45,009 nt of DNA, from positions 1 to 45,009 of the forward strand of contig JAJYPA010000016.1 of assembly GCA_021795795.1 (NCBI GenBank), in the 5' to 3' direction. Below, piece after piece: positions 1-34,805 of this stretch. Source of the stretch: Pseudomonadota bacterium (GTDB taxonomy: Bacteria > Pseudomonadota > Gammaproteobacteria > Halothiobacillales > Halothiobacillaceae). How positions within the stretch are numbered: the first letter of the stretch is position 1; the number at the start of each line of letters is the position of its first letter. Below the pieces are notes generated by a model. It was given only the letters and a program-made list of their open reading frames with translations. It was not told the DNA's origin and searched no databases. Both the position numbers and the translations under genes were made by a program.

Positions 1-111
1 AATTAAAAGAACATAAGGACATAACCAGAACTGTGGCTGGAGCATACTGACCTTTGGATGAGCTTGTGGTTCCCCGTCCTTGAATCACGCTCTCGAACCA
101 TAGGGAATCTC

Positions 112-279
112 TGCACGAATCCGTCCCTGCTTCGTGGTCTCACGCCAGCTTCAGGTTCAAAAACACCTATGTCTGCACACGCCCGAACAGGGTTCCGCAA
201 TTCAAAGACTTTAGTCATTGAGCGGCAGGGCATCCATGTCTTGCACGGGAAGGGCTGCATTTGTGCAGACCTTCCCTGG
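112..279 (+). repeat. Three-hairpin intergenic repeat, copy A
   Basis: Bases 112-279 resemble 11733-11880 over their length, starting with TGCACGAATCC in both. The 79-nt core is 201-279. It holds three hairpins in a row: arms CAAAGAC/GTCATTG (one mismatch), GCAGGGCAT/ATGTCTTGC (two G-T pairs) and GGGAAGGGCTGCA/TGCAGACCTTCCC (one mismatch, loop TTTG). It ends about 80 bases before the efflux operon. Short open frames here are by-products of the palindromes. The rest of 1-361 shows no convincing gene. Confidence 0.8.
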
Positions 280-318
280 ACTTCATACACCAAAAGCCTG
301 TTCAAGAAATTTATACGG

Positions 319-324
319 TATAAT
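319..324 (+). promoter_or_regulatory. Candidate -10 box for the efflux operon
   Basis: A perfect TATAAT lies 38 bases before the TTG start at 362. No good -35 hexamer is found at 16-18 bases; CTGTTC at 298-303 gives only a 15-base spacer. A possible AGGTGA ribosome binding site at 349-354 sits 7 bases before the TTG. The promoter call rests on the -10 box and position only. Confidence 0.35.
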
Positions 325-361
325 TTTTAGAGTATTTTGGCTTCCACCAGGTGATCCGCGC

Positions 362-1819
362 TTGAACTTCAAACACCTCTATCCAAGGCACATTGCCGTA
401 GTCTTATCGGCAGCCTTGATGCTTTCCGGGTGCGCGGCAGTCGGGCCGGATTACCAGAGGCCGACGGTTCCCGTACCGAAAAACTGGCAAACGCCAACAC
501 CAAACGACGCACCCTCCAGCGTCGATAACGCCGGGCTGGCTCGTTGGTGGCGCGAATTCCATGATCCGGTTCTGAATCGGTTGATTGAGCGTGCGTTAGC
601 CAACAACAAGAATCTGAAACAGGCAGAAGCCCGTCTGCTTGAAGCCCGCGCCAGGCGCGGGTTTGCCGAAGCAGATCGATTCCCGACGCTCGGAGCGAAC
701 GCTTCGGCCAACCGCAATGGCAGCAGTCAAGAACTGGGTTTTGGGCTTACCAACAACCAGTACAGCGCGGGTTTCGATGCGCGCTGGGAAATGGATATCT
801 TCGGCGGGAAACGGCGCGCACTTGAAGCGGCCTCGGCACAAGTTGCGGCAAGTGAAGCCGATCTGTCTGCCGTTCAGACCAGTCTCACGGCCGAAGTGGG
901 CGTCAACTACCTGAATCTGCGCGCCTATGCGGCCCGGCTTGCTGTTGCCAAGGCCAATCTCGCCATCCAGACGCAAACCCGTGATTTGGCCCAATGGCGC
1001 TATCAGGCGGGTTTGACCAGTCGCCTCGACATGGAACAGGCAACCTCCGCGCTGGAACAGACCCGTGCCCAGATTCCCGTGCTGGAAACCAGCCTGGCCC
1101 AAACCAAGAACCAGATCGCGATACTGCTCGGCATCAACCCCGAAGACCTGCCCCCATTCGCCACCGCGCCGATTCCCCGGGCCGATGCCATGATGAATAC
1201 GGGTATTCCGGCCGATCTGCTCCGTCGTCGCCCGGATATTCGCCGGGCTGAACGGCAATTGGCGGCGCAGACCGCCCAAATCGGTGTGGCAACGGCCGCC
1301 CAGTACCCGGACTTTTCTCTGGCAGGCAGTATCGGTCTGGCTTCCTTGGCCACAGGCAACCTGTTCACGGCCGCAGCCAGAACCTTCTCGCTCGGCAGTA
1401 ATGCTGCCTGGACGCTATTCGATGCCGGTCGGATTCATCAGAACATCCAGATCCAGAATGCGCTGCAGGCACAAGCGCTGGCTCAATATGAATCCACCGT
1501 ACTGACGGCTTTTGGCGAAGTCGAGAATGCATTGATTTCATATACACGCGAACAAGAGCGTCGTGCCGCATTGACCAAGGCGGTCGCCGCAGCCCAAAGT
1601 GCACAAGCGCTGGCGCAGAGCCAATATGCCGCAGGCCTGATCGACTTTCAGTCGGTGCTCGATACGCAACGGAGCCTGCTGACCCTGCAGGATTTGCTCA
1701 CCACCAGCGAAGCGGCTGTCAGCACAAGTTTGATTCAACTCTACAAAGCCCTGGGTGGAGGCTGGGTCGCGAACCCACCCGCCCCTGACCTCACTTCTTC
1801 TTCGGAGATCACGCCATGA
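362..1819 (+). CDS. RND/ABC efflux outer-membrane lipoprotein (NodT/TolC-like)
   Basis: This is an outer-membrane channel subunit of a tripartite efflux pump. With the TTG start at 362 it has 485 residues, normal for the NodT family, and an AGGTGA sequence sits 7 bases upstream. The first residues form a lipoprotein signal: a basic start, a hydrophobic stretch, then LMLSGCAAVGPDY with the lipobox cysteine. The typical GPDYQRP motif follows. The rest holds two helical outer-membrane-efflux repeats, with RRRPDIRRAERQLAAQTAQIG at the start of the second, as usual in the family. Its stop overlaps the adaptor start in ATGA, so it heads a four-gene operon. A longer frame opens at 218 but runs through repeat copy A and would lack a proper signal peptide. 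Confidence 0.9.
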   Translation: MNFKHLYPRHIAVVLSAALMLSGCAAVGPDYQRPTVPVPKNWQTPTPNDAPSSVDNAGLARWWREFHDPVLNRLIERALANNKNLKQAEARLLEARARRGFAEADRFPTLGANASANRNGSSQELGFGLTNNQYSAGFDARWEMDIFGGKRRALEAASAQVAASEADLSAVQTSLTAEVGVNYLNLRAYAARLAVAKANLAIQTQTRDLAQWRYQAGLTSRLDMEQATSALEQTRAQIPVLETSLAQTKNQIAILLGINPEDLPPFATAPIPRADAMMNTGIPADLLRRRPDIRRAERQLAAQTAQIGVATAAQYPDFSLAGSIGLASLATGNLFTAAARTFSLGSNAAWTLFDAGRIHQNIQIQNALQAQALAQYESTVLTAFGEVENALISYTREQERRAALTKAVAAAQSAQALAQSQYAAGLIDFQSVLDTQRSLLTLQDLLTTSEAAVSTSLIQLYKALGGGWVANPPAPDLTSSSEITP

Positions 1820-3102
1820 GCGCGACCAAACCTCAACCTTCTGCTGGTGCCGAAAGCGCCCGAGCGCCGATTTTCATGCAAAAATCCGGCGGTAGCCGAT
1901 GGAAACGCTGGCTGCTCATCGTGCTGGCCGTCGCCGTTCTGGTCGCCGGATATATGCTGTTTCGAGGGCAGGAAACCAACACGCCCCAATATGTAACCCA
2001 GCCGGTGCAACGCGGCGATCTCACGGTTGAAGTGACGGCGACGGGCACGTTGGCACCGACCAATCAGGTCGATGTGGGGATCGAGGTTTCCGGAACCATC
2101 AAGGAAGTGCTGGTCGACTACAACGATAAGGTAAAGGTCGGTCAACCGCTCGCCCTGCTCGACCCGACCAAGCTCGAAGCCCAGTTACGGCAGTCCACCG
2201 CAGCGCTTGATGCGGCGCGCGCGCGGGTGCAACAGGCCGAAGCCACGGTGCAGGAATCCAAGAGCCAGCTCGCCCGACTGGAGGATGTGCGGAAGATGAG
2301 CGGCGGCAAGGTGCCCTCCAAACTCGAATTCGACAAAGCACAGGCCGCCTATAACCGGGCCAAGGCAGACCTTGCCAGCGCACGGGCCAGCGTTGTGCAA
2401 AGCGAGGCGGTGCAAAACGCCAACCGCACCGATCTTTCCAAAACCGTTGTGCGTTCGCCCATCAATGGCATCGTGCTGAATCGCAATGTGGAACCGGGCC
2501 AGACCATCGCGGCCTCATTCCAGGCACCCGTACTCTTCACACTGGCTGAAGACCTCACGCAGATGGAGTTGCAGGTCGATGTCGATGAGGCAGATGTCGG
2601 TCAGGTCCATGTGGGACAGCCCGCCCGTTTTACAGTGGACGCTTTTCCTGATCGAAATTTCGATGCAAAAGTCACCCAGGTGCGCTACGGCTCGCAAACC
2701 GTTTCCGGCGTGGTGACCTACAAAACCATTCTCAAGGTCGACAACCGGGATCTTCTGCTGCGCCCCGGAATGACGGCCACCGCGCATATTCTGGTCAACG
2801 AAGACAAGAACGCGCTCCTCGTACCGAATGCGGCACTGCGCTTTTCACCGCCTGTGATGCCAACAACCAAAAGTAGCGGCGGTCTGATCTCCAATTTGAT
2901 GCCACGCCCTCCGCGCTCCACCCAGAATTCGATGCAGGCACCGACAGGCAAGGAGCAGCGCGTCTGGATATTGAAGGATGGGAAACCTGAACCGATCGAT
3001 GTCATGACCGGGCAGACGAACGGGATCATGACCGCCATTACGGAAGGTGCGCTGCAACCCGGCACACCACTGATTGTCGACATGAACGAGCAGACAAAAT
3101 GA
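1816..3102 (+). CDS. macA: MacA-like periplasmic adaptor (HlyD family)
   Basis: This is a membrane-fusion subunit that links the inner-membrane ABC permease to the outer-membrane channel. It has 428 residues. One membrane anchor lies near residues 31-51 (WLLIVLAVAVLVAGYMLF). The split lipoyl/barrel-sandwich motif follows (VEVTATGTLAPTNQVDVG and VRSPINGIVLNRNVEPGQ), with a coiled-coil hairpin of about 100 residues between the halves. A beta-barrel domain and a C-terminal membrane-proximal domain complete it. A Pro/Ser-rich insertion near residues 350-380 is a little unusual. Four-nt overlaps on both sides show it belongs to the efflux operon. Substrates cannot be told from sequence; MacA-type pumps export macrolides, peptides or siderophores. 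Confidence 0.88.
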   Translation: MSATKPQPSAGAESARAPIFMQKSGGSRWKRWLLIVLAVAVLVAGYMLFRGQETNTPQYVTQPVQRGDLTVEVTATGTLAPTNQVDVGIEVSGTIKEVLVDYNDKVKVGQPLALLDPTKLEAQLRQSTAALDAARARVQQAEATVQESKSQLARLEDVRKMSGGKVPSKLEFDKAQAAYNRAKADLASARASVVQSEAVQNANRTDLSKTVVRSPINGIVLNRNVEPGQTIAASFQAPVLFTLAEDLTQMELQVDVDEADVGQVHVGQPARFTVDAFPDRNFDAKVTQVRYGSQTVSGVVTYKTILKVDNRDLLLRPGMTATAHILVNEDKNALLVPNAALRFSPPVMPTTKSSGGLISNLMPRPPRSTQNSMQAPTGKEQRVWILKDGKPEPIDVMTGQTNGIMTAITEGALQPGTPLIVDMNEQTK

Positions 3103-3821
3103 GTGATGCGTCCGCACCGACACAAGGCCCCTTGCTTGAACTGGCAGGCGTAACCAAAGTGTATGGCAAGGGCAGCGCGTCCATGCAAGCCCTGCGCGGT
3201 ATCAATCTGGCGATTGAAGAAGGCGAGTTTGTGGCCATCATGGGCGCCAGTGGCTCGGGCAAAAGCACCGCGATGAACATCATCGGCTGTCTGGACACAC
3301 CCACCAGTGGAAACTACCGTTTCCGAGGCTTCGAAGTCGGGCAACTGAACCGCGACCAAAGGGCGCTGTTGCGACGCCACGAACTGGGGTTCGTTTTCCA
3401 GGGTTTCAATCTGCTGGCCCGAACCTCCGCTCTGGAAAATGTCGAGTTGCCGCTGATTTATCAGGGCGTACCGATTGCAGAGCGCCACAATCGGGCACGT
3501 GCGGCACTTGCCGATGTGGGACTGGACGGCTGGGAGCACCATACGCCCAGCGAACTTTCGGGCGGACAGCAACAACGGGTCGCCATTGCGCGCGCCATCG
3601 TGACACGCCCCGCCATCCTCCTGGCCGACGAGCCAACCGGCAACCTCGATACGGCCAGAAGTCAGGAAGTCATGGAAATGATTACCCGCTTCAACCGCGA
3701 CAAGGGCATTACCGTGGTGATGGTGACGCATGAACCGGACATGGCAGCTTATGCGAGGCGTGTCATCCATTTTCGAGATGGCTTGGTCGAAAGCGACACC
3801 GCTCAAACAGGAGCGGCATGA
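3099..3821 (+). CDS. ABC transporter ATP-binding protein (MacB/LolD type)
   Basis: This is the ATPase of the efflux ABC transporter, with 240 residues. Visible motifs are Walker A (GASGSGKS), Q-loop (FVFQGFNLL), the signature [14 protein letters not shown], Walker B (ILLADEP) followed by TGNLD, and the switch histidine in MVTHEPD. The set is typical of the MacB/LolD/FtsE subgroup. In E. coli MacB the ATPase and permease are fused; here they are separate genes, with an ATGA overlap at 3818-3821. It is cytoplasmic and works as a dimer with the next gene product. Confidence 0.93.
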
Positions 3822-5026
3822 TGTTGTGGAATACCTTTCTGCTGGCATTACGCGAAATCAGACGCAACGTGATGCGCTCGTTCCTGACCATTCTCGGCAT
3901 CGTCATCGGGGTCGCAGCGGTGATCGTGATGGTGACGCTCGGCGGCGGTGCCACGGCAAAGGTCAGTGAGCAGATCGCCAGTCTCGGCAGCAACCTGTTG
4001 ATTGCCACACCCGGGAAACGCATGGGGCCGGGACAGATCAGCGGCGCGCCCGCATTCAAAGCGGAAGATGCCGAAGCCATTGCCCGTGAAGTTCCGGGCC
4101 TAGCGGCAATAGCACCCGCCTCCTCGCGCGCCATGACGGTGGTGTACGGCAACCAGAACTGGTCGACAATGGTGAGCGGATCCACGGACGACTATTTCGC
4201 CGCACGGAACTGGACCATACAGGACGGACGCCGATTCAGCAGCAGTGAACTTCGTTCCGGCGCGGCCGTTTGCATAATCGGCGCCACCGTCAAATCCAAG
4301 TTGTTCGGCAGTCAGGACCCGATCGGCGACCGAATCAGGCTGCAAAAAATGGCCTGTCAGGTCATCGGTGTTCTGGATGCCAAAGGCCAATCCACCATGG
4401 GCACGGATCAGGATGATCTGGTGCTGATTCCTCTTCGGACATTCCAGCGCCGCATCTCCGGCAACCTGGATGTGAACATTATTCAGGTTTCTGCCGCCAA
4501 GGGTGTATCGACAGACCGGGTCAAGCGGGATATCGAGCAGATTCTGCGTGAGCGCCGCCATATACCAACGGCCGGGGAAAGCGACTTCAACGTGATGGAT
4601 ATGAAAGAAATCACCAAGATGCTCACGGGAACAACCCAGATTCTGACGGCCCTACTGGGGGCGGTTGCGGCGGTGAGCCTGCTCGTGGGCGGCATCGGGA
4701 TCATGAACATCATGCTGGTGTCCGTCACCGAACGGACGCGTGAAATTGGTATCCGCATGGCGATCGGCGCACTCGAGCGGGAAGTTCTGCTCCAGTTTCT
4801 GGTTGAAGCGATTGTTTTATCCTCGCTTGGCGGTCTGATCGGTATTGCCCTGGCCCTTGGCGGATCAATCGCGCTGGCCAGCGCTTTGCACATTCCCTTT
4901 GTTTTCAATGCAGGAATTGTTGCCCTGGCTGCACTATTTTCAGCCGCTGTGGGGGTCGTCTTCGGGTATTTTCCAGCGCGCAAGGCAGCACGACTCGACC
5001 CCATTGAGGCGCTCCGTCATGAGTAA
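3818..5026 (+). CDS. ABC transporter permease (MacB/FtsX family)
   Basis: This is the inner-membrane permease of the MacA-like pump, with 402 residues. The N-terminus matches MacB permeases (REIRRNVMRSFLTILGIVIG, first membrane helix). A periplasmic MacB-PCD domain spans roughly residues 45-250. A FtsX domain with three helices follows, including the typical GGIGIMNIMLVSVTERTREIG. It ends with the family-typical PARKAARLDPIEALRHE. It is the last gene of the operon. No clear intrinsic terminator is seen right after it; about 700 bases without a recognised gene follow. Confidence 0.92.
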   Translation: MMLWNTFLLALREIRRNVMRSFLTILGIVIGVAAVIVMVTLGGGATAKVSEQIASLGSNLLIATPGKRMGPGQISGAPAFKAEDAEAIAREVPGLAAIAPASSRAMTVVYGNQNWSTMVSGSTDDYFAARNWTIQDGRRFSSSELRSGAAVCIIGATVKSKLFGSQDPIGDRIRLQKMACQVIGVLDAKGQSTMGTDQDDLVLIPLRTFQRRISGNLDVNIIQVSAAKGVSTDRVKRDIEQILRERRHIPTAGESDFNVMDMKEITKMLTGTTQILTALLGAVAAVSLLVGGIGIMNIMLVSVTERTREIGIRMAIGALEREVLLQFLVEAIVLSSLGGLIGIALALGGSIALASALHIPFVFNAGIVALAALFSAAVGVVFGYFPARKAARLDPIEALRHE

Positions 5027-5143
5027 TCGGGTTGACATATCAAGCGCTCGCACGCCTGCCCCATGATGATTCACCGCTTGGTAAGCGTGAGCGATTTGAG
5101 GGATTCGGCTTTCACTATCCTGCACGGAAAACGAGCATAAAAG

Positions 5144-5189
5144 TTATCAACAAAAACTGTGGATAACCTTGGGTATAAAGTTTCCACAA
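5144..5189. promoter_or_regulatory. DnaA-box-like cluster
   Basis: TGTGGATAA at 5158-5166 is the exact reverse complement of the DnaA consensus TTATCCACA. TTATCAACA at 5144-5152 differs from it at one base. TTTCCACAA at 5181-5189 is a weaker relative. A strongly AT-rich tract follows at about 5220-5300. The arrangement resembles small origin or DnaA-control regions, but no dnaA, dnaN, rpmH or rep gene is nearby, so function is open. Confidence 0.4.
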
Positions 5190-5219
5190 GCACAACCCAT
5201 CAAGCAGTTACCGCTTCTG

Positions 5220-5550
5220 GTTATTTTTACACCAACATGACCAATCGAAAATATATACAATAAAATCAATATATTAAATAGACAATGTATATTTTAAGTA
5301 AAGTCGATACGGGAACTTGAATTCCAGCCATGACCTGACTTCCGCTGTGCATAGTTCCAATGCTGTCAATAGAAGATTTTTCGATATAACCAATTTTTTT
5401 GCTTTACTTTTCACCCAAAAAAGGTGGTCGTCACCCACTGATTAAATGACAAATCACCATCGAAAAAGTCGTCGAGACTTTCAATCAGCATTTCTGATAG
5501 AGATTTCTTTCTTGGTACGGCCTCCTGTCCATTATTTATCCTGGTGGGTA
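5220..5550. other. Gene-free AT-rich tract and possible gene remnant
   Basis: Bases 5220-5300 are very AT-rich. From 5411 to about 5500 the minus strand encodes a plausible protein tail (KKSLSEMLIESLDDFFDGD, then a few more residues to a stop at 5411). It has no usable start: its frame runs upstream straight into the hairpins of repeat copy C. It may be the end of a small gene cut off by that element. No family was recognised. Confidence 0.3.
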
Positions 5551-5701
5551 CCTCGAAAAACCCCATCCTTGGGATTTTTCGAGGACGTTCGTCGCGGGAA
5601 GCCCGCGACAAACTCACGCTATTTCAATCGCTTATGCGATTGCGCGGCACCACTTCCATGTGGTGCATGGGCACCTCGAAAGGTTTTTCGAGGTGCCCTG
5701 G
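5551..5701 (+). repeat. Multi-hairpin intergenic repeat, copy C
   Basis: Five hairpins follow one another. The first is 5551-5584, arms CCTCGAAAAA/TTTTTCGAGG. The second is 5591-5609, arms GTCGCGGG/CCCGCGAC. The remaining three form the 79-nt core 5623-5701: CAATCGC/GCGATTG, GCACCAC/GTGGTGC and GGGCACCTCGAAA/TTTCGAGGTGCCC. The core aligns without gaps to copies A and B; the loops TTA and TCCA are kept while the stems differ in a compensated way. Hairpins one and five share the arm CCTCGAAA. It ends 40 bases before the next gene. Confidence 0.85.
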
Positions 5702-5740
5702 TGTCTGTTCGCGCTCTTGCCGTCACCGCCCGCTGCGGCC

Positions 5741-7045
5741 ATGATGAGCGAAACCGTTCCGGATTTAACATACATGGGCTCAATCAATTCACTTTCACCT
5801 TTACTGGTCGCGTTCCTGGAAACGTCGATTTTCGGGTTTCTCATCGGTCTTGAGTGGCACAGTTATCGCCGCGCGGCCAACAAGGATCTGGGTTTTGGCA
5901 CAACGCGCACGCTGACCCTGCTGTCGATTCTCGGCTATGGACTAACCGTCATTGACCCGAGCTTTATCGCCTATGGCGTGGGTTTGCTGGTCATCGGTGC
6001 GTTACTGTCTTTAGCCTACTGGTATCGGCTAACCAGAACTCAGGATGATCGACTCCTGAGCACACTGATTGCACTCGTGGTTTATCTACTCGGCCCACTG
6101 TCTCTACACGGCCCATTATGGCTGCCGATTGTCTTCATGATCGTGGTCTTGCTGTTGCTGGGTGAAAAACCCGGCATCAGGCGGTTTTCGGATGCCTTCC
6201 GACACGACGAAGCGCTGACACTGGTCAAATTCTTCCTGATGGCGGGGGTGATTTTGCCCCTGCTGCCAGATCGCCAGATCGCTGGATTTATCGACGTAAC
6301 CTGGCATCAGGTCTGGTTCGCGGTGATTGTCGTATCGGCGATTTCTTATTTGAGCTATCTGGCCCAAACCTATTTTTTCCCGGAACGTGGCGTCCTGCTG
6401 ACGGGCATCCTCGGCGGCATGTATTCGAGCACGGCAGCCACTGTTGTGCTGGGTAGGCGCGCACAGAAACAGCCCGAACCTCAGGCTCGTCTGATCGGTG
6501 TCGCGGTGTTGCTGGCCACGACAATGATGTATTTGAGACTCTGGGTGCTAATTGTCGTGCTGGGGCATTCACAAACAGCTACCCATCTTGCCGCCCCGTT
6601 CGCCCTGTTGATCCTCAGTACAGCGGCGCTTGCCTTGTGGCAATTCAGAAGGGTGAAGGTGAATGCAGAGCCACAGCCTGAGTTGCCACCCAGCCATCCT
6701 CTCGAATTCTCGACGGCTTTGTTATTTGCCTTCCTGTTTGTATTTTTTGCCACCGTTACGCATTTCGTCGTCACCGACTACGGCGTGAGTGGCTTGCACG
6801 TGCTTTCTTTCATGGTCGGCTTTACGGACATCGATCCCTTCATCCTGTCGCTTTTGGACGGAAAATTTCACGTGAGTGAAAACGCCCTGGAAATCGCCAT
6901 CCTCATTGCGAGCGGCAGCAACAATCTGTTGAAAGCAGGCTATACGGTCGCCCTGTCGCGCAATCCGGCCCTGTTTGGATCAGCAGCCTGGCTGGCCGCG
7001 ACCTTTCTGCTGTCGCTGGGATATATCGCTCTGTTTCTGAGGTAG
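5741..7045 (+). CDS. MgtC/SapB-type membrane protein with DUF4010
   Basis: This is a polytopic inner-membrane protein of about 434 residues with roughly a dozen hydrophobic segments. The N-terminal part has the MgtC/SapB pattern (FLIGLEWHSYRR, then GFGTTRTLTLLSILG). The C-terminal part matches DUF4010 (SFMVGFTDIDPFILSLL and AIASGSNNLLKAGY-like text near the end). The transport substrate, if any, is unknown. The start is uncertain: ATG at 5741 or 5744 gives the best family-like N-terminus, ATG at 5774 is an alternative, and none has a good Shine-Dalgarno sequence. The frame extends back to 5660, but those residues are translated from repeat copy C and are probably not real. Confidence 0.82.
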   Translation: MMSETVPDLTYMGSINSLSPLLVAFLETSIFGFLIGLEWHSYRRAANKDLGFGTTRTLTLLSILGYGLTVIDPSFIAYGVGLLVIGALLSLAYWYRLTRTQDDRLLSTLIALVVYLLGPLSLHGPLWLPIVFMIVVLLLLGEKPGIRRFSDAFRHDEALTLVKFFLMAGVILPLLPDRQIAGFIDVTWHQVWFAVIVVSAISYLSYLAQTYFFPERGVLLTGILGGMYSSTAATVVLGRRAQKQPEPQARLIGVAVLLATTMMYLRLWVLIVVLGHSQTATHLAAPFALLILSTAALALWQFRRVKVNAEPQPELPPSHPLEFSTALLFAFLFVFFATVTHFVVTDYGVSGLHVLSFMVGFTDIDPFILSLLDGKFHVSENALEIAILIASGSNNLLKAGYTVALSRNPALFGSAAWLAATFLLSLGYIALFLR

Positions 7046-7100
7046 CGTGTGTGGACAACCGGTAGGCGCCAAACTCGCTCAAATGAACCGCACATCAGTG

Positions 7101-8573
7101 TCAGCCGGGGTCGCGCTGATACTCTGTCACCAAAGCGCGGATACGTTTCGATAACTCAGCACTCATGTCGGCACGCTCAAACTGCCAGGTCCAATTACCC
7201 GTCGGTGTACCCGGCGTATTGATTCGACCGCTCGAATCACAACCCAGCCAATCGGCCATGGGAATAATGGCTAATTGAGCAACCGAGGCCATGGCCGCAC
7301 GAATAAGAGCCATGGGCATCGGCTCCGCCCTCGACAGTTTCAATTGCTGCTCGAGCACGTCGTACACGTGCGCTTGTGCATCCGGGCTGAGCGATTGCCA
7401 CCAACCCAGCGTCGTATCATTATCGTGCGTTCCGGTATACACGACCGAATCGGCCTGGTGATTCACGGGCAGATAGGGGTTATCGTCATCGCTATCAAAA
7501 GCGAACTGCAGGATGAGCATGCCCGGCATACCGAATGCCTTGCGCAAAGCGGTAACATCTTCGGTGATCACACCCAGATCTTCCGCGATGATGGGCAGAT
7601 CACCGCCGAAAGCCTCGCTCAAAGCTGTCAATAAAGCGGCACCCGGCGCTTCGACCCAGCGGCCATCGATCGCGGTATCGCAATGAGCGGGAATCGACCA
7701 GTACGCCGCCAGCCCACGAAAATGGTCGATTCGCACCCAGTCGAACATGTCGATGTGGCGGGCCATTCGCTGTTTCCACCAGGAGAACCCATCGGCCGCC
7801 ATGCGGGACCAGTCAAAGAGCGGATTCCCCCAGCGCTGCCCGGTTGCGGAGAAGTAGTCGGGCGGAACGCCGGCCACCTTGGTGGGCAAACCTCGTTCGT
7901 CCAGTTGGAAAAACGCCCGATTCGCCCAAACGTCGGCCGAATCACCGGCCACAAAAATCGGCAGGTCACCGTAGATCAAAATACCAAGTTCGTGGGCTTT
8001 CGTGACTATGCGCCGCCACTGGCGATCCAGCAGGAACTGTTCGAACTGTATGGCATAAACTGCTTTCGCATGATCCCGTGCAAAAGCCTCAAGGGAGGCC
8101 GGATCACGATCTCGCCATGCCGGTCGCCACTCAAGCCACGACCGCCCCTGTTCATGGGACTTGATGACCATGAATAAGGCGTAATCATCAAGCCAGTTAG
8201 ACGACGCACGACAAAACTGTTCGAATTCGGCCAACAGGGATGTCAAGGCGCCCTGCCCGGCTCTTCGTTCGGACACCGTGGCGACAGGGTCAAAATCATC
8301 GGGATTGAGCAACAGGGCGTCGGACAGGAATGCCGGGTTGATCGCAAAAGAAGATGCGCACTGATAAGGGGAACCATCCATAAGTGGCGGCCCGAGCGGC
8401 AACACTTGCCAAACAGTCAGGCGGCTTTGGGTCATGAACGCCAGGAATTGATCCACTGAGGGGCCAAAATCACCCGATGGCAGGCTAAATACAGGGGTCA
8501 GAACGCCCGCTCTTCGCAGGGCACAGGGCATTTCAGGCAAATTTTTTTTCTCTTTGGACGACTCTTTACCCAT
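7101..8573 (-). CDS. malQ: 4-alpha-glucanotransferase (amylomaltase)
   Basis: This enzyme transfers maltooligosaccharide units between glucans (GH77) in the cytoplasm, in glycogen and maltodextrin metabolism. With the ATG at 8573 it has 490 residues. The family signatures are visible: SPYQCASSFAINP near the N-terminus, the nucleophile Asp in VRIDHFRG (about residue 283), the acid/base Glu in IIAEDLG (about 331) and the third acid in TGTHDNDT (about 384). The start codon overlaps the stop of the upstream GH57 gene in TAATG, so translation is probably coupled. It is the last gene of glgC-GH57-malQ. Confidence 0.92.
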   Translation of the reverse strand: MGKESSKEKKNLPEMPCALRRAGVLTPVFSLPSGDFGPSVDQFLAFMTQSRLTVWQVLPLGPPLMDGSPYQCASSFAINPAFLSDALLLNPDDFDPVATVSERRAGQGALTSLLAEFEQFCRASSNWLDDYALFMVIKSHEQGRSWLEWRPAWRDRDPASLEAFARDHAKAVYAIQFEQFLLDRQWRRIVTKAHELGILIYGDLPIFVAGDSADVWANRAFFQLDERGLPTKVAGVPPDYFSATGQRWGNPLFDWSRMAADGFSWWKQRMARHIDMFDWVRIDHFRGLAAYWSIPAHCDTAIDGRWVEAPGAALLTALSEAFGGDLPIIAEDLGVITEDVTALRKAFGMPGMLILQFAFDSDDDNPYLPVNHQADSVVYTGTHDNDTTLGWWQSLSPDAQAHVYDVLEQQLKLSRAEPMPMALIRAAMASVAQLAIIPMADWLGCDSSGRINTPGTPTGNWTWQFERADMSAELSKRIRALVTEYQRDPG

Positions 8574-10273
8574 TATTGGCCACGCCGCATCACACCGCCC
8601 GCTTCCACTGCCGAGTTTGCTTCGACGCCAAGACACAGTGGAACAGACAGATTGGCCGGCACATCCGCACCGATAAGCTCGTACAATCGAGTCAACTGTA
8701 AGCGGTACAAGTGGTCGAAATCTCGAACGGCATCGCCCGGGTTGTAATCACCAAACCACCAGAACCAGTCTGAGCCCTCGCAGATAGCCAGTTGCTGGAG
8801 ATTCCGCGCCTCGGTTTGGGCATCCCACGGCCGTATGGACTGAGCTTTCACAAATGCCAGACGTGCCTCAATCAGCATATCCCAAGCCCGGTTCTTGGCC
8901 GCACTGCCGATCCAAGTCGTCAGATTGCCATACACCCAACTCCCCGCAACAAGGTGCTGCAAGGTCTTGCGTTGATAAGTCTTGGTCACCACCTCGGAGA
9001 ACGTGGTGAGTTCGATATCCGGGTGTGTACTCAATCCCTTGTACAAGGCATCCAGAAACCAATAACCATTGTGTGGGTAAAACTCCCAGGCATTTTCACC
9101 ATCGAGAATAATAGAGACCACAGCGTCGTCATTCTGACAATCGTGACGAATCTTCATCAAATGGGCGATAAAGTCGGCAACAGCATCATCTGCATGCCAT
9201 TTCTGGTAGTCGAACCCGATCAGATCGGAGAGACCGTCATCCCTAAAAAAAAGTGCGGGCGACAAAGCATCGAACTGCCACACTCGGTGACGGCAATCAT
9301 TTGCAACCATCTTCTGTTTCTGTAACGAGTGGCTCAGCACTTGATCGCCACTGGCCAACCAAGTGAAACCGGCTTTAGCCAATTCATGCACCGTCGGTTC
9401 GGAAACCGCGCCTTCAGAGGGCCAGCAACCAGTAGGATGAACGCCGAAAAAGCGCTTGAACACAGCAAAACCGTGCTGCAAGTGCCACTGCACACGGTCT
9501 GCGCCACCGGGATAACTCAGGTGCTGCGGCTGCGGGTCATGCGGGCAAGTCTGCTTACCGGCGGTCATATCGAGCAACAACGGCATAATCGGATGCGCAT
9601 AAGGCGTCATGGATAGCTCAACTTGTCCATTTTCCGATAACGCCCGATAGCGAGTAAAGATTCCCGCAATCAAGGAACCTATGAGCGCCAGCAGCTGAGC
9701 GCGCTCATCACTGTCGAACCCGGTGGGCTTGGCCATCAGCTGTTTAACGAGTGTATTTTCAAGACGAACGGTTTCACCCATCCAGGCCAAGTGGTACCAC
9801 ACCGCCAAATCGGCCATGAATTGATCGCTCAGATAATGCCCGTTTTCAGTATTGGCAGAAATTGAACGCGCCAGATCTACCAGATCCCTGAATGGTTCAA
9901 AACGGTTAACCAATCGGTCTTCATTCGCGCGCAGGCAGGCCCGAACAACGGTCATCCGCGCAGCCGAATCGTTAATCTGCGCGGGCTCGACCAAAGCGAC
10001 CAGCAACGGGTCACGCAGCTTGGATATCTCGCGTGTTTCGAGGTATTGCGCGATCTGGACCGAGTAATCGTCGAGTTGTTCGAGCAGGATGGGCACAAAA
10101 TTGACGACTGCGCGCGCGCGCGGGTGACGCTCGAGATGCGCGGCCATATCGACATAGTCCTTGATGGCGTGCAGGTAAGTCCACGGCTGCTGGTAGATTT
10201 TATCCCGAGGGTCTCTGTATTCCGGCTGGTGCATATGCCAGCAAAGAACAACGGGTAACTTCTTGTGTTTCAT
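8573..10273 (-). CDS. Glycoside hydrolase family 57 protein
   Basis: This is a 566-residue cytoplasmic alpha-glucan-active enzyme of family GH57 (alpha-amylase or glucanotransferase type). It opens with VVLCWHMHQPEYRDP, where HQP is conserved motif 1. GCWPSEGAVSEP (near residue 305) and ILDGENAWEFYPHNG (near 405) fit later GH57 motifs. No signal peptide is seen, so the substrate is probably internal glycogen or maltodextrin. Its ATG overlaps the glgC stop in TGATG, and its stop overlaps the malQ start. Exact specificity, hydrolysis or transfer, cannot be read from sequence. Confidence 0.87.
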   Translation of the reverse strand: MKHKKLPVVLCWHMHQPEYRDPRDKIYQQPWTYLHAIKDYVDMAAHLERHPRARAVVNFVPILLEQLDDYSVQIAQYLETREISKLRDPLLVALVEPAQINDSAARMTVVRACLRANEDRLVNRFEPFRDLVDLARSISANTENGHYLSDQFMADLAVWYHLAWMGETVRLENTLVKQLMAKPTGFDSDERAQLLALIGSLIAGIFTRYRALSENGQVELSMTPYAHPIMPLLLDMTAGKQTCPHDPQPQHLSYPGGADRVQWHLQHGFAVFKRFFGVHPTGCWPSEGAVSEPTVHELAKAGFTWLASGDQVLSHSLQKQKMVANDCRHRVWQFDALSPALFFRDDGLSDLIGFDYQKWHADDAVADFIAHLMKIRHDCQNDDAVVSIILDGENAWEFYPHNGYWFLDALYKGLSTHPDIELTTFSEVVTKTYQRKTLQHLVAGSWVYGNLTTWIGSAAKNRAWDMLIEARLAFVKAQSIRPWDAQTEARNLQQLAICEGSDWFWWFGDYNPGDAVRDFDHLYRLQLTRLYELIGADVPANLSVPLCLGVEANSAVEAGGVMRRGQ

Positions 10274-11544
10274 CAGCGCACCATGTGTAAACGTTGTCCG
10301 AGCATGTCCGGCGTCACCAGCACGATCCCATTCGGACTGACCTCAAAACGCTTCTTGTCTTCAACTGGGTCGAATCCGATTTTCATCCCTTCGGGGATGA
10401 CACAGCCTTTGTCCACAACGGCATTCTGAATCTTGACCCCCTTATTGACGATCGCGTTGGGCAAGATCACGGAGCTTTCGACTGAAGCCTGCTCTTTGAC
10501 GATGACATTGGAGAAAAGCAGGGAATGGCGCACCAAGGCACCTGAAATGATGCAGCCGCCGGACACCATGGAATCAACAGCCATCCCGCGCCGATCTTCG
10601 TCGTCGAATACAAACTTGGCGGGCGGCAATTGCTCCTGATGTGTCCAGATCGGCCAGTCGGTATCGTACAGATTCAGATCGGGGGTCACGCCAATCAGTT
10701 CAAGATTTGCCGCCCAGTAAGAATCGATGGTCCCCACATCCCGCCAGTAGGCTTGGGTATTGTTCTGAACATCCCGGAACGGATAAGCGAACACCTGATA
10801 TCGGTTGATCACTCGTGGAATGACATTCTTACCAAAGTCGTGATCCGAATGTGGATCATCCGCATCGTAAATCAGTTGCTCGAACAGAAATTTGGTATTG
10901 AAGACATAGATGCCCATCGACGCCAATGCCTTGCCGGGATTACCCGGTATTTCAGGGGGGGCATCGGGCTTCTCCAGAAACATGTTGACCCGCCCCTCGC
11001 CAGCAACACCCATCACGCCGAATGCCTTGGCCTCATCCACGGGCACTTCGATACAGCCGATGGTCAAATCTGCTCCTTTTTCGACGTGGTAGGCAATCAT
11101 CGGACCGTAGTCCATTTTATAGATATGATCGCCCGCCAGAATGAGAATGTATTCGGCGTCATGGGTTCGCAGAATGTCGATGTTCTGGTACACGGCATCG
11201 GCGGTGCCGCTGTACCATGATTTCTCGTTGATCCGCTGCTGTGCTGGCAGCAACTCCACGAACTCGTTACGAGCCATCCGGTTCGAGCCCCAGGCCAATT
11301 GGACGTGCTTGATGAGCGAGTGGGCCTTGTACTGCGTCAGTACTGCCATGCGTCGGATACCTGAATTAACGCAATTGGATAATGGGAAATCAATAATCCG
11401 GAACTTTCCACCGAAGGGGACGGCAGGCTTCGCTCGCCAATCGGTGAGTTGTTTGAGACGAGAACCACGGCCTCCCGACAAAACCAGAGCCAATGTATCG
11501 CGGGTGATTCGACTGACCAATCGTTTGGGGCTATCAATCAACAT
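10273..11544 (-). CDS. glgC: Glucose-1-phosphate adenylyltransferase
   Basis: This enzyme makes ADP-glucose from ATP and glucose 1-phosphate, the committed step of bacterial glycogen synthesis. The 423-residue length is close to E. coli GlgC. Visible features are the nucleotide-binding loop [15 protein letters not shown] with the downstream [19 protein letters not shown], the GDHIYKMDY region, [13 protein letters not shown], and a C-terminal left-handed beta-helix. The ATG at 11544 is preceded by AAAGGGATATATTT, a good binding site. It starts a leftward operon (glgC, GH57, malQ), divergent from glgB across 732 bases. Confidence 0.95.
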
Positions 11545-11573
11545 AAATATATCCCTTTGTCACACAATTAAGG

Positions 11574-11669
11574 ACACTCTGAACAATTCCATCCTAGAGT
11601 GTTCAGAGGGCGAAAATCAAAAAAGCAGTTTTTGATTTTCTTCATGAACAATCACGTGCGTGATCGTTC
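11574..11669. repeat. Three hairpins in the glgC leader region
   Basis: First, CTCTGAACA (11577-11585) can pair with TGTTCAGAG (11600-11608), and ACACTCT (11574-11580) with AGAGTGT (11596-11602). These two pairings exclude each other. Second, GAAAATCAAAAA/TTTTTGATTTTC (11612-11640) is a perfect 12-bp stem with a 5-base loop. Third, GAACAATCACG/CGTGATCGTTC (11646-11669) has one mismatch. They lie 30-125 bases upstream of the glgC start and just before repeat copy B. Their role is unknown. Confidence 0.6.
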
Positions 11670-11732
11670 GTGGCAGCACACCCTGTGCCGCACGGAATCT
11701 CTGAATTCATCAAAATTTCCCTAAGAAAACTT

Positions 11733-11880
11733 TGCACGAATCCTTCCCTGGCTTCCTGCAGAAACACCCGTGCCTATACACGCCCGGCTCGGATTCAGCA
11801 ATTCAATGACTTACGTCATTGAGCGGCAGGGCATCCATGCCCTGCACATGAAGGTCTGCATTTGTGCAGACCTTCCCTAA
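11733..11880 (+). repeat. Three-hairpin intergenic repeat, copy B
   Basis: This is a close relative of copy A, with the core at 11802-11880. All three stems are perfect or nearly so: CAATGAC/GTCATTG with loop TTAC, GCAGGGCAT/ATGCCCTGC with loop CC, and GAAGGTCTGCA/TGCAGACCTTC with loop TTTG. Bases 11733-11801 are also shared with copy A (TGCACGAATCC, AAACACC, CACGCCCG). It lies between glgC and glgB, about 400 bases before the glgB start. Confidence 0.85.
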
Positions 11881-12276
11881 ATGATCCTCAACTGAAAACG
11901 TTATGGCTTGATGAGCATAAGGAAATGATAGTTGATCACCTGCAATCTAACCTCATTATTCAGGCCCTTCAAGCCATAATCCTATCCTTGGAACATGACC
12001 GTCAAGCCAAAACGAAAAATAAATTTCACATCATTTTCACACGGACCGACTGGTGATCAATTCGTTGGTTCGAACCAAGATCGAAACAGGGTCGGCAAGA
12101 GCGACTCAAGGCTTCAATGCCAGTAATTAATGGACTGTTTTGACTCAACAGTAAATTTCCAGACCACTTACCCGAAGGCCGCGGGCCATGCGAGAGTTGA
12201 ACAGTTTCACCATAAGGGATACCTTTATTCGGGCTGGCCAATTCGAGCAACTCATGCCTACACAAGGAACCCATTG
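11881..12276. other. glgB upstream region, no clear gene
   Basis: An open frame ending at 12056 (about 45 residues after the repeat, containing MIVDHLQSNLIIQALQAII) has no convincing start or family and may be chance or a remnant. A perfect 14-bp palindrome TTGGTTCGAACCAA lies at 12065-12078 and could be an operator. AAGGA at 12264-12268 is the glgB binding site. No clear sigma-70 promoter was recognised. Confidence 0.4.
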
Positions 12277-23167: not shown

Positions 23168-23220
23168 CAGTCGGGTTTTAAAGTGCTTCGGCGTGTTCAG
23201 GGCCTCAATCCTGATTTTTT

Positions 23221-23250
23221 GGGCACCTCGAAAGGTTTTTCGAGGTGCCC
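23221..23250 (+). repeat. Terminator-like hairpin in the cbbM leader
   Basis: A perfect 13-bp stem (GGGCACCTCGAAA/TTTCGAGGTGCCC, loop GGTT) is followed by TTTTC and lies 26 bases before the cbbM ATG. The 30 bases are identical to 5669-5698, the third hairpin of repeat copy C. If the cbbM promoter is upstream, near 23150-23185, the hairpin is in the mRNA leader. It could attenuate transcription, protect the 5' end or simply be a repeat fragment. Confidence 0.75.
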
Positions 23251-23276
23251 TTTTCATAAAACAGAGGAGTTACATC

Positions 23277-34534: not shown

Positions 34535-34805
34535 CTAGTGTACTGTTTCGCTCTTGGAGGTACTTTCAGAGTCCTCCGAATGCGTCAGGACAAGGCGCCG
34601 TGCGCAGGCAATGGCCAAACCCTTGTTAAGCACGGCAACGCCGTCATGGCGCATTCGGAGCACTCCCATCGGGCGAGCCGCTGGCCGATCATCTGCGGCG
34701 TTGCGCTCGCTTGCAAGGGGGCGGCCATTGCGGCGCGAGCGCGCCTTGCATCTAATCGGCCAGCGACTCGCTGAATGTGCCTCCAAGAGCGAAACAGTAC
34801 ACTAG
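34535..34805. mobile_element. 271-bp MITE-like palindromic element
   Basis: The ends are 29-bp inverted repeats: 34535-34563 begins CTAGTGTACTGTTTCGC and 34777-34805 is its reverse complement with one mismatch. Inside are two further long stems. Arm 1 is CTCCGAATGCGTCA (34574-34587) with TGGCGCATTCGGAG (34647-34660). Arm 2 is 34673-34695 with 34749-34771 (shared core CGCTGGCCGAT). The loops of the two arms are inverted relatives (CAAGGCGC, GCAATGGCC, CCCTTG, CAACGCCG in each). The element could fold as a cloverleaf. It carries no transposase; its open frames mirror each other and are not genes. It lies between cysS and the DHH gene. Confidence 0.8.

Follow-up and report, generated by a model that had tools for sequence, protein, structure and literature searches.

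A 45,009-nt stretch of a Halothiobacillaceae genome (Pseudomonadota bacterium, GenBank assembly GCA_021795795.1, contig JAJYPA010000016.1, positions 1 to 45,009 of the forward strand; hereafter the window) carries four copies of a dispersed, five-hairpin element of about 152 bp. The element is an IS5-type miniature inverted-repeat transposable element (MITE), a non-autonomous transposable element, and selection on an RNA fold within it is well supported. From the covariation of the fold and the polarity of its stem mismatches, we infer that the selected RNA is read from the reverse strand. On that strand, the loops of two hairpins match the published motif of the regulator CsrA/RsmA and are paired as fits a CsrA dimer, a match that we regard as a strong lead from sequence. 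The best explanation, to which we assign a probability of about one half, is an IS5-type MITE selected as RNA with loops that would bind a CsrA dimer.

A first-pass annotation of the window had described a three-hairpin repeat with three 79-nt cores. The cores lie where it placed them, align without gaps, and each fold into the three hairpins described (forward-strand RNA z = -4.5, -7.9, and -8.3; none of 200 shuffles as good in any case). All 11 column pairs that it listed as differing between cores B and C are altered on both sides and are Watson-Crick in both copies. The repeat unit is larger: the cores are the 3' parts of the ~152-bp element, which is bounded by terminal inverted repeats and has two extra hairpins upstream of the cores in well-kept copies. 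A fourth copy, adjoining copy C, had been overlooked, and the copies described as close relatives, A and B, are not the close pair, which is A and C (69 of 79 positions identical, against 48 for A-B and 46 for B-C).

In the forward orientation, the hairpins are arranged in the order H1 (loop approximately CATCC), H2, H3 (loop often TTAC), H4 (loop CATCCATG and variants), and H5. The outermost hairpins, H1 and H5, supply the terminal inverted repeats with their outer arms. An end search without a length reward gave 151–153 bp for 37 of 70 copies; type C and D copies, with ends fixed by pattern, measured 151 bp in 21 of 24 cases and 152 bp in the other three, and type E copies are longer, at about 161–171 bp. 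Copy A is degenerate, with an extra insert of ~21 nt and no clear target duplication, and the GGA loops of the fourth copy are degenerate too. The minus-strand RNA of copy B has a predicted folding energy of -95.5 kcal/mol (z = -12.7), matched by none of 200 shuffles.

The fold was assessed in alignment A4, a MAFFT alignment of 35 diverse copies. It derives from a 36-sequence set, A3 (69 passing copies reduced to 33, with one omitted, some re-cut, and some added by hand), from which one sequence (L175) was dropped. In A4, 84.1% of the cells pair, compared with 34.9–44.7% when the partners are slid and 66.0% in shuffled alignments, none of 500 of which reached the observed value. Double changes that stay paired occupy 284 cells, against 105.6 after shuffling (0/500), and 35 of 42 pairs are altered on both sides (30.1 shuffled; 1/500). 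Pairing is highest in H4 (97.6%) and H3 (94.5%; outer stem 53.8%), followed by H1 (89.6%) and H2 (70.1%). RNAalifold, applied to 36 copies, returned 31 pairs, 25 of them with compensated change. The proposal that the fold is what is kept, advanced from the three cores, is supported; many more copies exist, and the covariation persists as they are added.

The first-pass annotation had left the kept form as RNA or single-stranded DNA; the kept fold stands, and the polarity of mismatches now favors one strand, the one opposite to that described. Mismatches were counted in stems located by a strand-symmetric search. Read on the reverse strand, 95 Halothiobacillaceae copies contain 95 G.T and 27 A.C mismatches, or 49 and 25 when only distinct contexts are counted (one-sided binomial 0.0035). 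Most of this set was gathered with R1, a covariance model of the other strand, so model bias would oppose the G.T excess. The same strand shows 25 G.T against 3 A.C mismatches in 29 copies from 29 other genomes. RNA of the reverse strand is also predicted to be the more stable in 82 of the 95 Halothiobacillaceae copies, 25 of 28 copies from other genomes, and 68 of 90 copies in a genome with a recent burst of the element (G144). The analyses of G144 cover 90 of its 123 matches, with 33 not included; in the other-genome set, the alignment (A6) has 28 rows (L244 omitted), the 29-locus counts omit two secondary matches, and one locus (L248) was unplaced in one step.

On the reverse strand, the H1 and H4 loops read C[ANGGAN]G or C[AGGAN]G (loop in brackets), with variation mostly at N. 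In the H4 loop, the four fixed columns of A4 are A in 35, G in 35, G in 34, and A in 35 of 35 rows, while both N columns are variable and the first N is missing from six rows, giving the shorter form. The corresponding H1 columns are A in 29, G in 34, G in 32, and A in 35 rows, the shortfall in the first being due to six type D rows shifted by one. In A6, the H4 columns are A in 27, G in 28, G in 28, and A in 27 of the 28 copies. The two motif hairpins occur together in 21 of the 29 other-genome copies and 56 of the 95 Halothiobacillaceae copies, and at least one in 27 and 83, respectively; on the forward strand, one motif hairpin occurs in 4/29 and 2/95 copies, and two in none. In addition, a GNRA tetraloop with a closing C-G pair caps H3 in 44 of the 95 Halothiobacillaceae copies.

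According to the available text of the sources, a stem-borne ANGGAX hexaloop is the proposed high-affinity consensus of CsrA/RsmE (PMC4005645), and CsrA motifs are generally paired because CsrA is a dimer (PMC4333381). The latter source also describes two other RNA families with two such loops that were proposed to bind CsrA from the motif alone, the same ground on which binding may be ascribed to the present element.

The element is mobile. The window comes from a relative of Halothiobacillus, and its genes, those for glycogen among others, are proteobacterial in type. Its nearest named match is Halothiobacillus sp. STB_50 (L031; L and G numbers are our labels for loci and genomes), with 91–95% identity across long aligned stretches; G001 is probably the same genome, judging from equal breakpoints. 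At the site of copy B, L031/G001, G002, and G010 have a single copy of the target and no element, and in the window TGGT flanks the copy left and right. The tandem pair that includes copy C (11572–11876) is missing at its site in L031 and G010; G002, which diverges more widely over that stretch, was not scored there. With ends fixed by the consensus, the 4-bp flanks are identical in 52 of 59 G144 copies (permuted flanks: mean 10.0, maximum 22 in 2000 permutations), as they are in 19 of 24 pattern-anchored type C and D copies (permuted mean 7.9, maximum 15). The duplicated tetramers are mostly TTAA, TTAG, CTAA, and CTAG, i.e., YTAR; type B copies have 4-bp duplications without this consensus. 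Target duplications of the IS5 kind are 4 bp long with the consensus YTAR.

Because the end searches rewarded target-duplication matches, and some also the usual length, the fixed-end counts above and recounts guided by the inverted repeats alone serve as controls. A search that rewarded matches and 150–153 bp found terminal inverted repeats of at least 12/20, target duplications of at least 3/4, and a length of 145–185 bp in 76 of 111 copies, the filter leaving out the other 35. The inverted-repeat score alone was at least 11/16 in 97 of the 111 copies and in 81 of 90 copies in G144. Among these, perfect 4-bp repeats were found in 26/81 (G144) and 12/97 copies, against permuted maxima of 9 and 4; the numbers are lower here because YTAR is nearly palindromic, which shifts the ends.

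Candidate partners were found among the relatives. A 1.28-kb IS5-family insertion sequence (IS) present in two identical copies in G010, with no clear target duplication, has the end GGGCACCTCGAAAAACC, which is the end of type B. Another IS5-family IS, in G002, is flanked by TTAA on both sides and ends in GGAAGGTCTGATCAAT, which is only similar to the ends of types A, C, and D; the comparison of ends covered types A, B, C, and D. The transposases of both far exceed the NCBIfam IS5_4 cut-off of 140 bits (307.8 bits in G010 and 298.0 bits in G002). IS5-family transposases are the putative movers of the element, acting in trans.

We weigh the following scheme. IS5-family transposases would move the copies as a non-autonomous MITE, the RNA read from the reverse strand would be the selected form, and its H4 and H1 loops would bind one CsrA/RsmA dimer. 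An insertion transcribed in the favored sense would add a two-site CsrA target in cis within the transcript; alternatively, the copies summed may act as a CsrA decoy. Selection would act on the spreading source copies, inserted copies then mostly drifting.

Several observations weigh against this scheme. The presence of csrA does not track the element, the gene being found in 59 of the 67 genomes with R2 matches (positive) and in 253 of the 302 without; three positive genomes with a stated completeness of at least 95% (G001, G142, and G214) gave no csrA match, these and the other positive genomes without a match (eight in all) being drafts. Nor are copies oriented with respect to flanking open reading frames (ORFs), which were called crudely: those of G144 are sense in 28, antisense in 20, convergent in 23, and divergent in 19 cases (n = 90), and those of Halothiobacillaceae 9, 12, 14, and 13 (of 56). 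The burst in G144 shows a weak excess of G.T over A.C, 29:13 by cells and 16:12 by distinct events, a pattern that drift after insertion, with selection on the source copies, would produce. The loop and polarity counts in the 29 genomes rest on matches to R2, a covariance model whose training copies had these loops and were read on that strand. The number of further pair types shows no excess in A4 (83 against 80.8 shuffled; 148/500), and the GNRA loop of H3, seen in only about 6 of the 29 other-genome copies, is no general feature.

That the hairpins of an IS5-type MITE serve as RNA in some capacity unrelated to CsrA is rather unlikely in our judgment, yet it is the strongest of the alternatives. 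The stem-loops could keep insertions harmless or stable within transcripts, through RNase processing or mRNA stability, or the loops could serve another RNA-binding partner. All the evidence for a MITE and for an RNA fold holds for this account, and the distribution of csrA favors it; it offers no reason for the loops to retain the letters of the CsrA motif while varying at its N positions.

We consider it improbable that the hairpins have no RNA function and are kept as DNA, e.g., for binding of a transposase or nucleoid protein or as single-stranded or cruciform DNA during transposition, or that the stems remain complementary through template-switch correction of quasi-palindromes. The element does move as DNA, template switching can yield compensated changes, and the lack of orientation bias of copies relative to genes fits such an origin. 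A symmetric process, however, predicts equal numbers of G.T and A.C mismatches, contrary to the excess on one strand, the same strand that is predicted to be the more stable RNA. Template switching, moreover, does not maintain loops, and the IS5 elements examined by eye show no such hairpins at their ends. Copies that are dispersed, intergenic, palindromic, and numerous also recall repetitive extragenic palindromes (REPs) moved by a REP-associated tyrosine (Y1) transposase (RAYT), an identity of negligible probability that we reject, given that PF01797 was found in one of six genomes bearing the element, with none in G001, G002, G010, G014, or G016, and that inverted repeats with 4-bp duplications are unexpected of RAYT transposition.

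A role as a cis-acting leader or 3' untranslated region (3'UTR) element was also considered and rejected. A first count in G144 had placed the upstream gene codirectional with the element in 55 cases and opposite in 24, and at least 12 of the ORFs so counted terminated at one fixed position within the element; once the element was cut out, the bias vanished (28 against 20). The corrected Halothiobacillaceae figures are 9 against 12, after 24 against 16 in a cruder earlier count. Within the window, the tandem pair lies between the divergent genes glgC and glgB, and its favored strand runs in the sense of the glgC leader; glgC is classically regulated by CsrA.

The element is widespread. R1, built from the three cores on the forward strand, matched 12 of 30 relatives and at least 81 places in G001. 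R2, built from 35 copies on the reverse strand, matched 67 of 369 gammaproteobacterial genomes, in 52 of 272 genera, at E ≤ 0.001. In a sample across the phylum, 47 of 398 genomes were positive at E ≤ 1e-6, 42 of them outside Gammaproteobacteria, and 34 of these 42 belong to one family. At least 89 R2 matches were found in G001 and at least 123 in G144 (150 candidates scored). Copy numbers are lower bounds, as 8 or 9 candidates were scored per genome in the large surveys and 150 in the smaller ones. Among 80 named loci (1.44 Mb), R2 matched a single one, a Methyloversatilis metagenome-assembled genome (twice), which argues against many false positives. Narrow probes gave no match in a plasmid set (window 11780–11900 and one element from L264) or in viral contigs (one 27-nt element pattern).

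The first-pass annotation knew of no matching repeat class; with respect to mobility that is wrong, the element being a MITE, and no named family was found for it. At the gathering score, no element had a match in Rfam 15, whose only match within the window was a tRNA; at E ≤ 0.01, sets of 17 and 16 other loci gave no match on any element. The gyrA RNA (RF01740) had a sub-threshold match to half of copy B (5532–5619, minus strand; 39.2 against 45 bits, E 4e-7), which failed to recur in 17 other loci, and this identity was rejected. No description of the family was found in the open-license literature searched, a search that did not extend to subscription journals or ISfinder. The kind of element, an IS5-type MITE, is known, but its conserved five-hairpin, strand-polarized architecture with paired CsrA-type loops is undescribed within the reach of these searches.

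With IS5-family ISs and IS-derived bacterial MITEs, the element shares its ends, a 4-bp YTAR-like duplication, the lack of coding capacity, and copy numbers of tens to more than 100; it differs from both in its five conserved hairpins, kept loops, and stems covarying across many families. A term search of the main text of a review of MITEs (PMC10969869) found no mention of CsrA or RNA binding. Csr/Rsm sponge RNAs have several to many GGA motifs; these RNAs (CsrB, RsmX/Y/Z), whose models in Rfam matched none of the copies, are genes, whereas the element is dispersed and mobile and has two GGA loops. The likeness lies in the ANGGA-loop hairpins, which in the sponges bind CsrA dimers, as given in the available text of PMC4005645 and PMC4333381. 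Two CsrA-type loops and a motif-only proposal of CsrA binding are likewise shared with the TwoAYGGAY (RF01731) and Bacillaceae-1 (RF01690) RNAs as presented in the available part of PMC4333381, which gives no account of them as transposable; neither model matched the copies. The QMITE1 and QMITE2 elements of Coxiella resemble ours in being transcribed MITEs with strong predicted folds and, compared by description only, differ in their direct repeats of 2–4 bp and 7–9 bp and long palindromic folds; CsrA does not occur in a term search of the main text of that source (PMC5896051).

Coordinates are collected in the table below. Tandem arrangement is frequent (L165, L177, L147, and the window pair), the neighbors having one CTAA or CTAG in common, as though new copies preferred to insert at the end of an existing one. 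A solo 32-nt hairpin at 23220–23251, identical to H5 of copy B (5668–5699), stands directly upstream of the RuBisCO large-subunit gene and is followed by TTTT; more solo H5-type hairpins occur in G001, G002, and G010. Several copies carry, within the H1, H2, or H3 loop, a palindromic insert of 20–40 nt resembling GGGCTTGCGCCAGC..GCGTT, possibly a second, smaller nested repeat (window 103–276, in the H2 region; L001, L023, L029, L145, L151, L152, L154, and L221). Elsewhere in the window, an inverted repeat spans 34535–34805, its 35-bp arms 94% complementary and separated by 201 nt; it encloses a second one (34608–34643 and 34696–34731) and is perhaps another MITE. Near one element, L018 1334–1369 resembles the CRISPR-DR34 repeat (33.5 bits, just below the 35-bit cut-off).

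Table. Copies of the element in the window, with their flanks and the hairpins of copy B.
Feature	Position	Strand	Remarks
Copy A (type A)	103..276	-	Core 201-279; R2 match 104-246, 53.5 bits; ends by inverted-repeat search
Target duplication TGGT, left of B	5542..5545	.	Flank sequence
Copy B (type B), 153 bp	5546..5698	-	Core 5623-5701; R2 95.2 bits
H1 of B	5551..5584	-	Loop 5565-5570, C[AAGGAT]G on - strand
H2 of B	5587..5613	-	
H3 of B	5625..5642	-	
H4 of B	5647..5666	-	Loop 5654-5659, C[ATGGAA]G on - strand
H5 of B	5669..5698	-	Takes in the right terminal inverted repeat
Target duplication TGGT, right of B	5699..5702	.	Flank sequence
TTAA, left flank of tandem pair	11568..11571	.	
Fourth copy (type D), tandem neighbor of C	11572..11720	-	R2 66.6 bits; BLAST family of dispersed copies
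CTAA common to both tandem copies	11721..11724	.	
Copy C (type A), 152 bp	11725..11876	-	Core 11802-11880; R2 107.5 bits
CTAA, right flank of tandem pair	11877..11880	.	

If the element is indeed selected as RNA, it represents a very common, apparently undescribed MITE family under RNA-structure selection, through which mobile DNA would keep supplying two-site targets to a global post-transcriptional regulator. Tentatively, and with less confidence than in the scheme above, we hypothesize that this old IS5-type family is a transposon-borne riboregulator, a mobile RNA that offers a site for a CsrA dimer and whose transposition seeds CsrA sites. Were this true, transposition would shift the pool of free CsrA, and the element, with tens to more than 100 copies per genome in Gammaproteobacteria and other proteobacterial classes, would be a bacterial counterpart of the short interspersed nuclear elements (SINEs) derived from functional RNA. 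The finding links two usually separate fields and offers a model and a motif to seek in RNA-seq and CsrA cross-linking and immunoprecipitation (CLIP) data. Even without CsrA, a MITE with a conserved five-hairpin fold and strand polarity of mismatches in many families makes selection on structure in non-autonomous elements testable.

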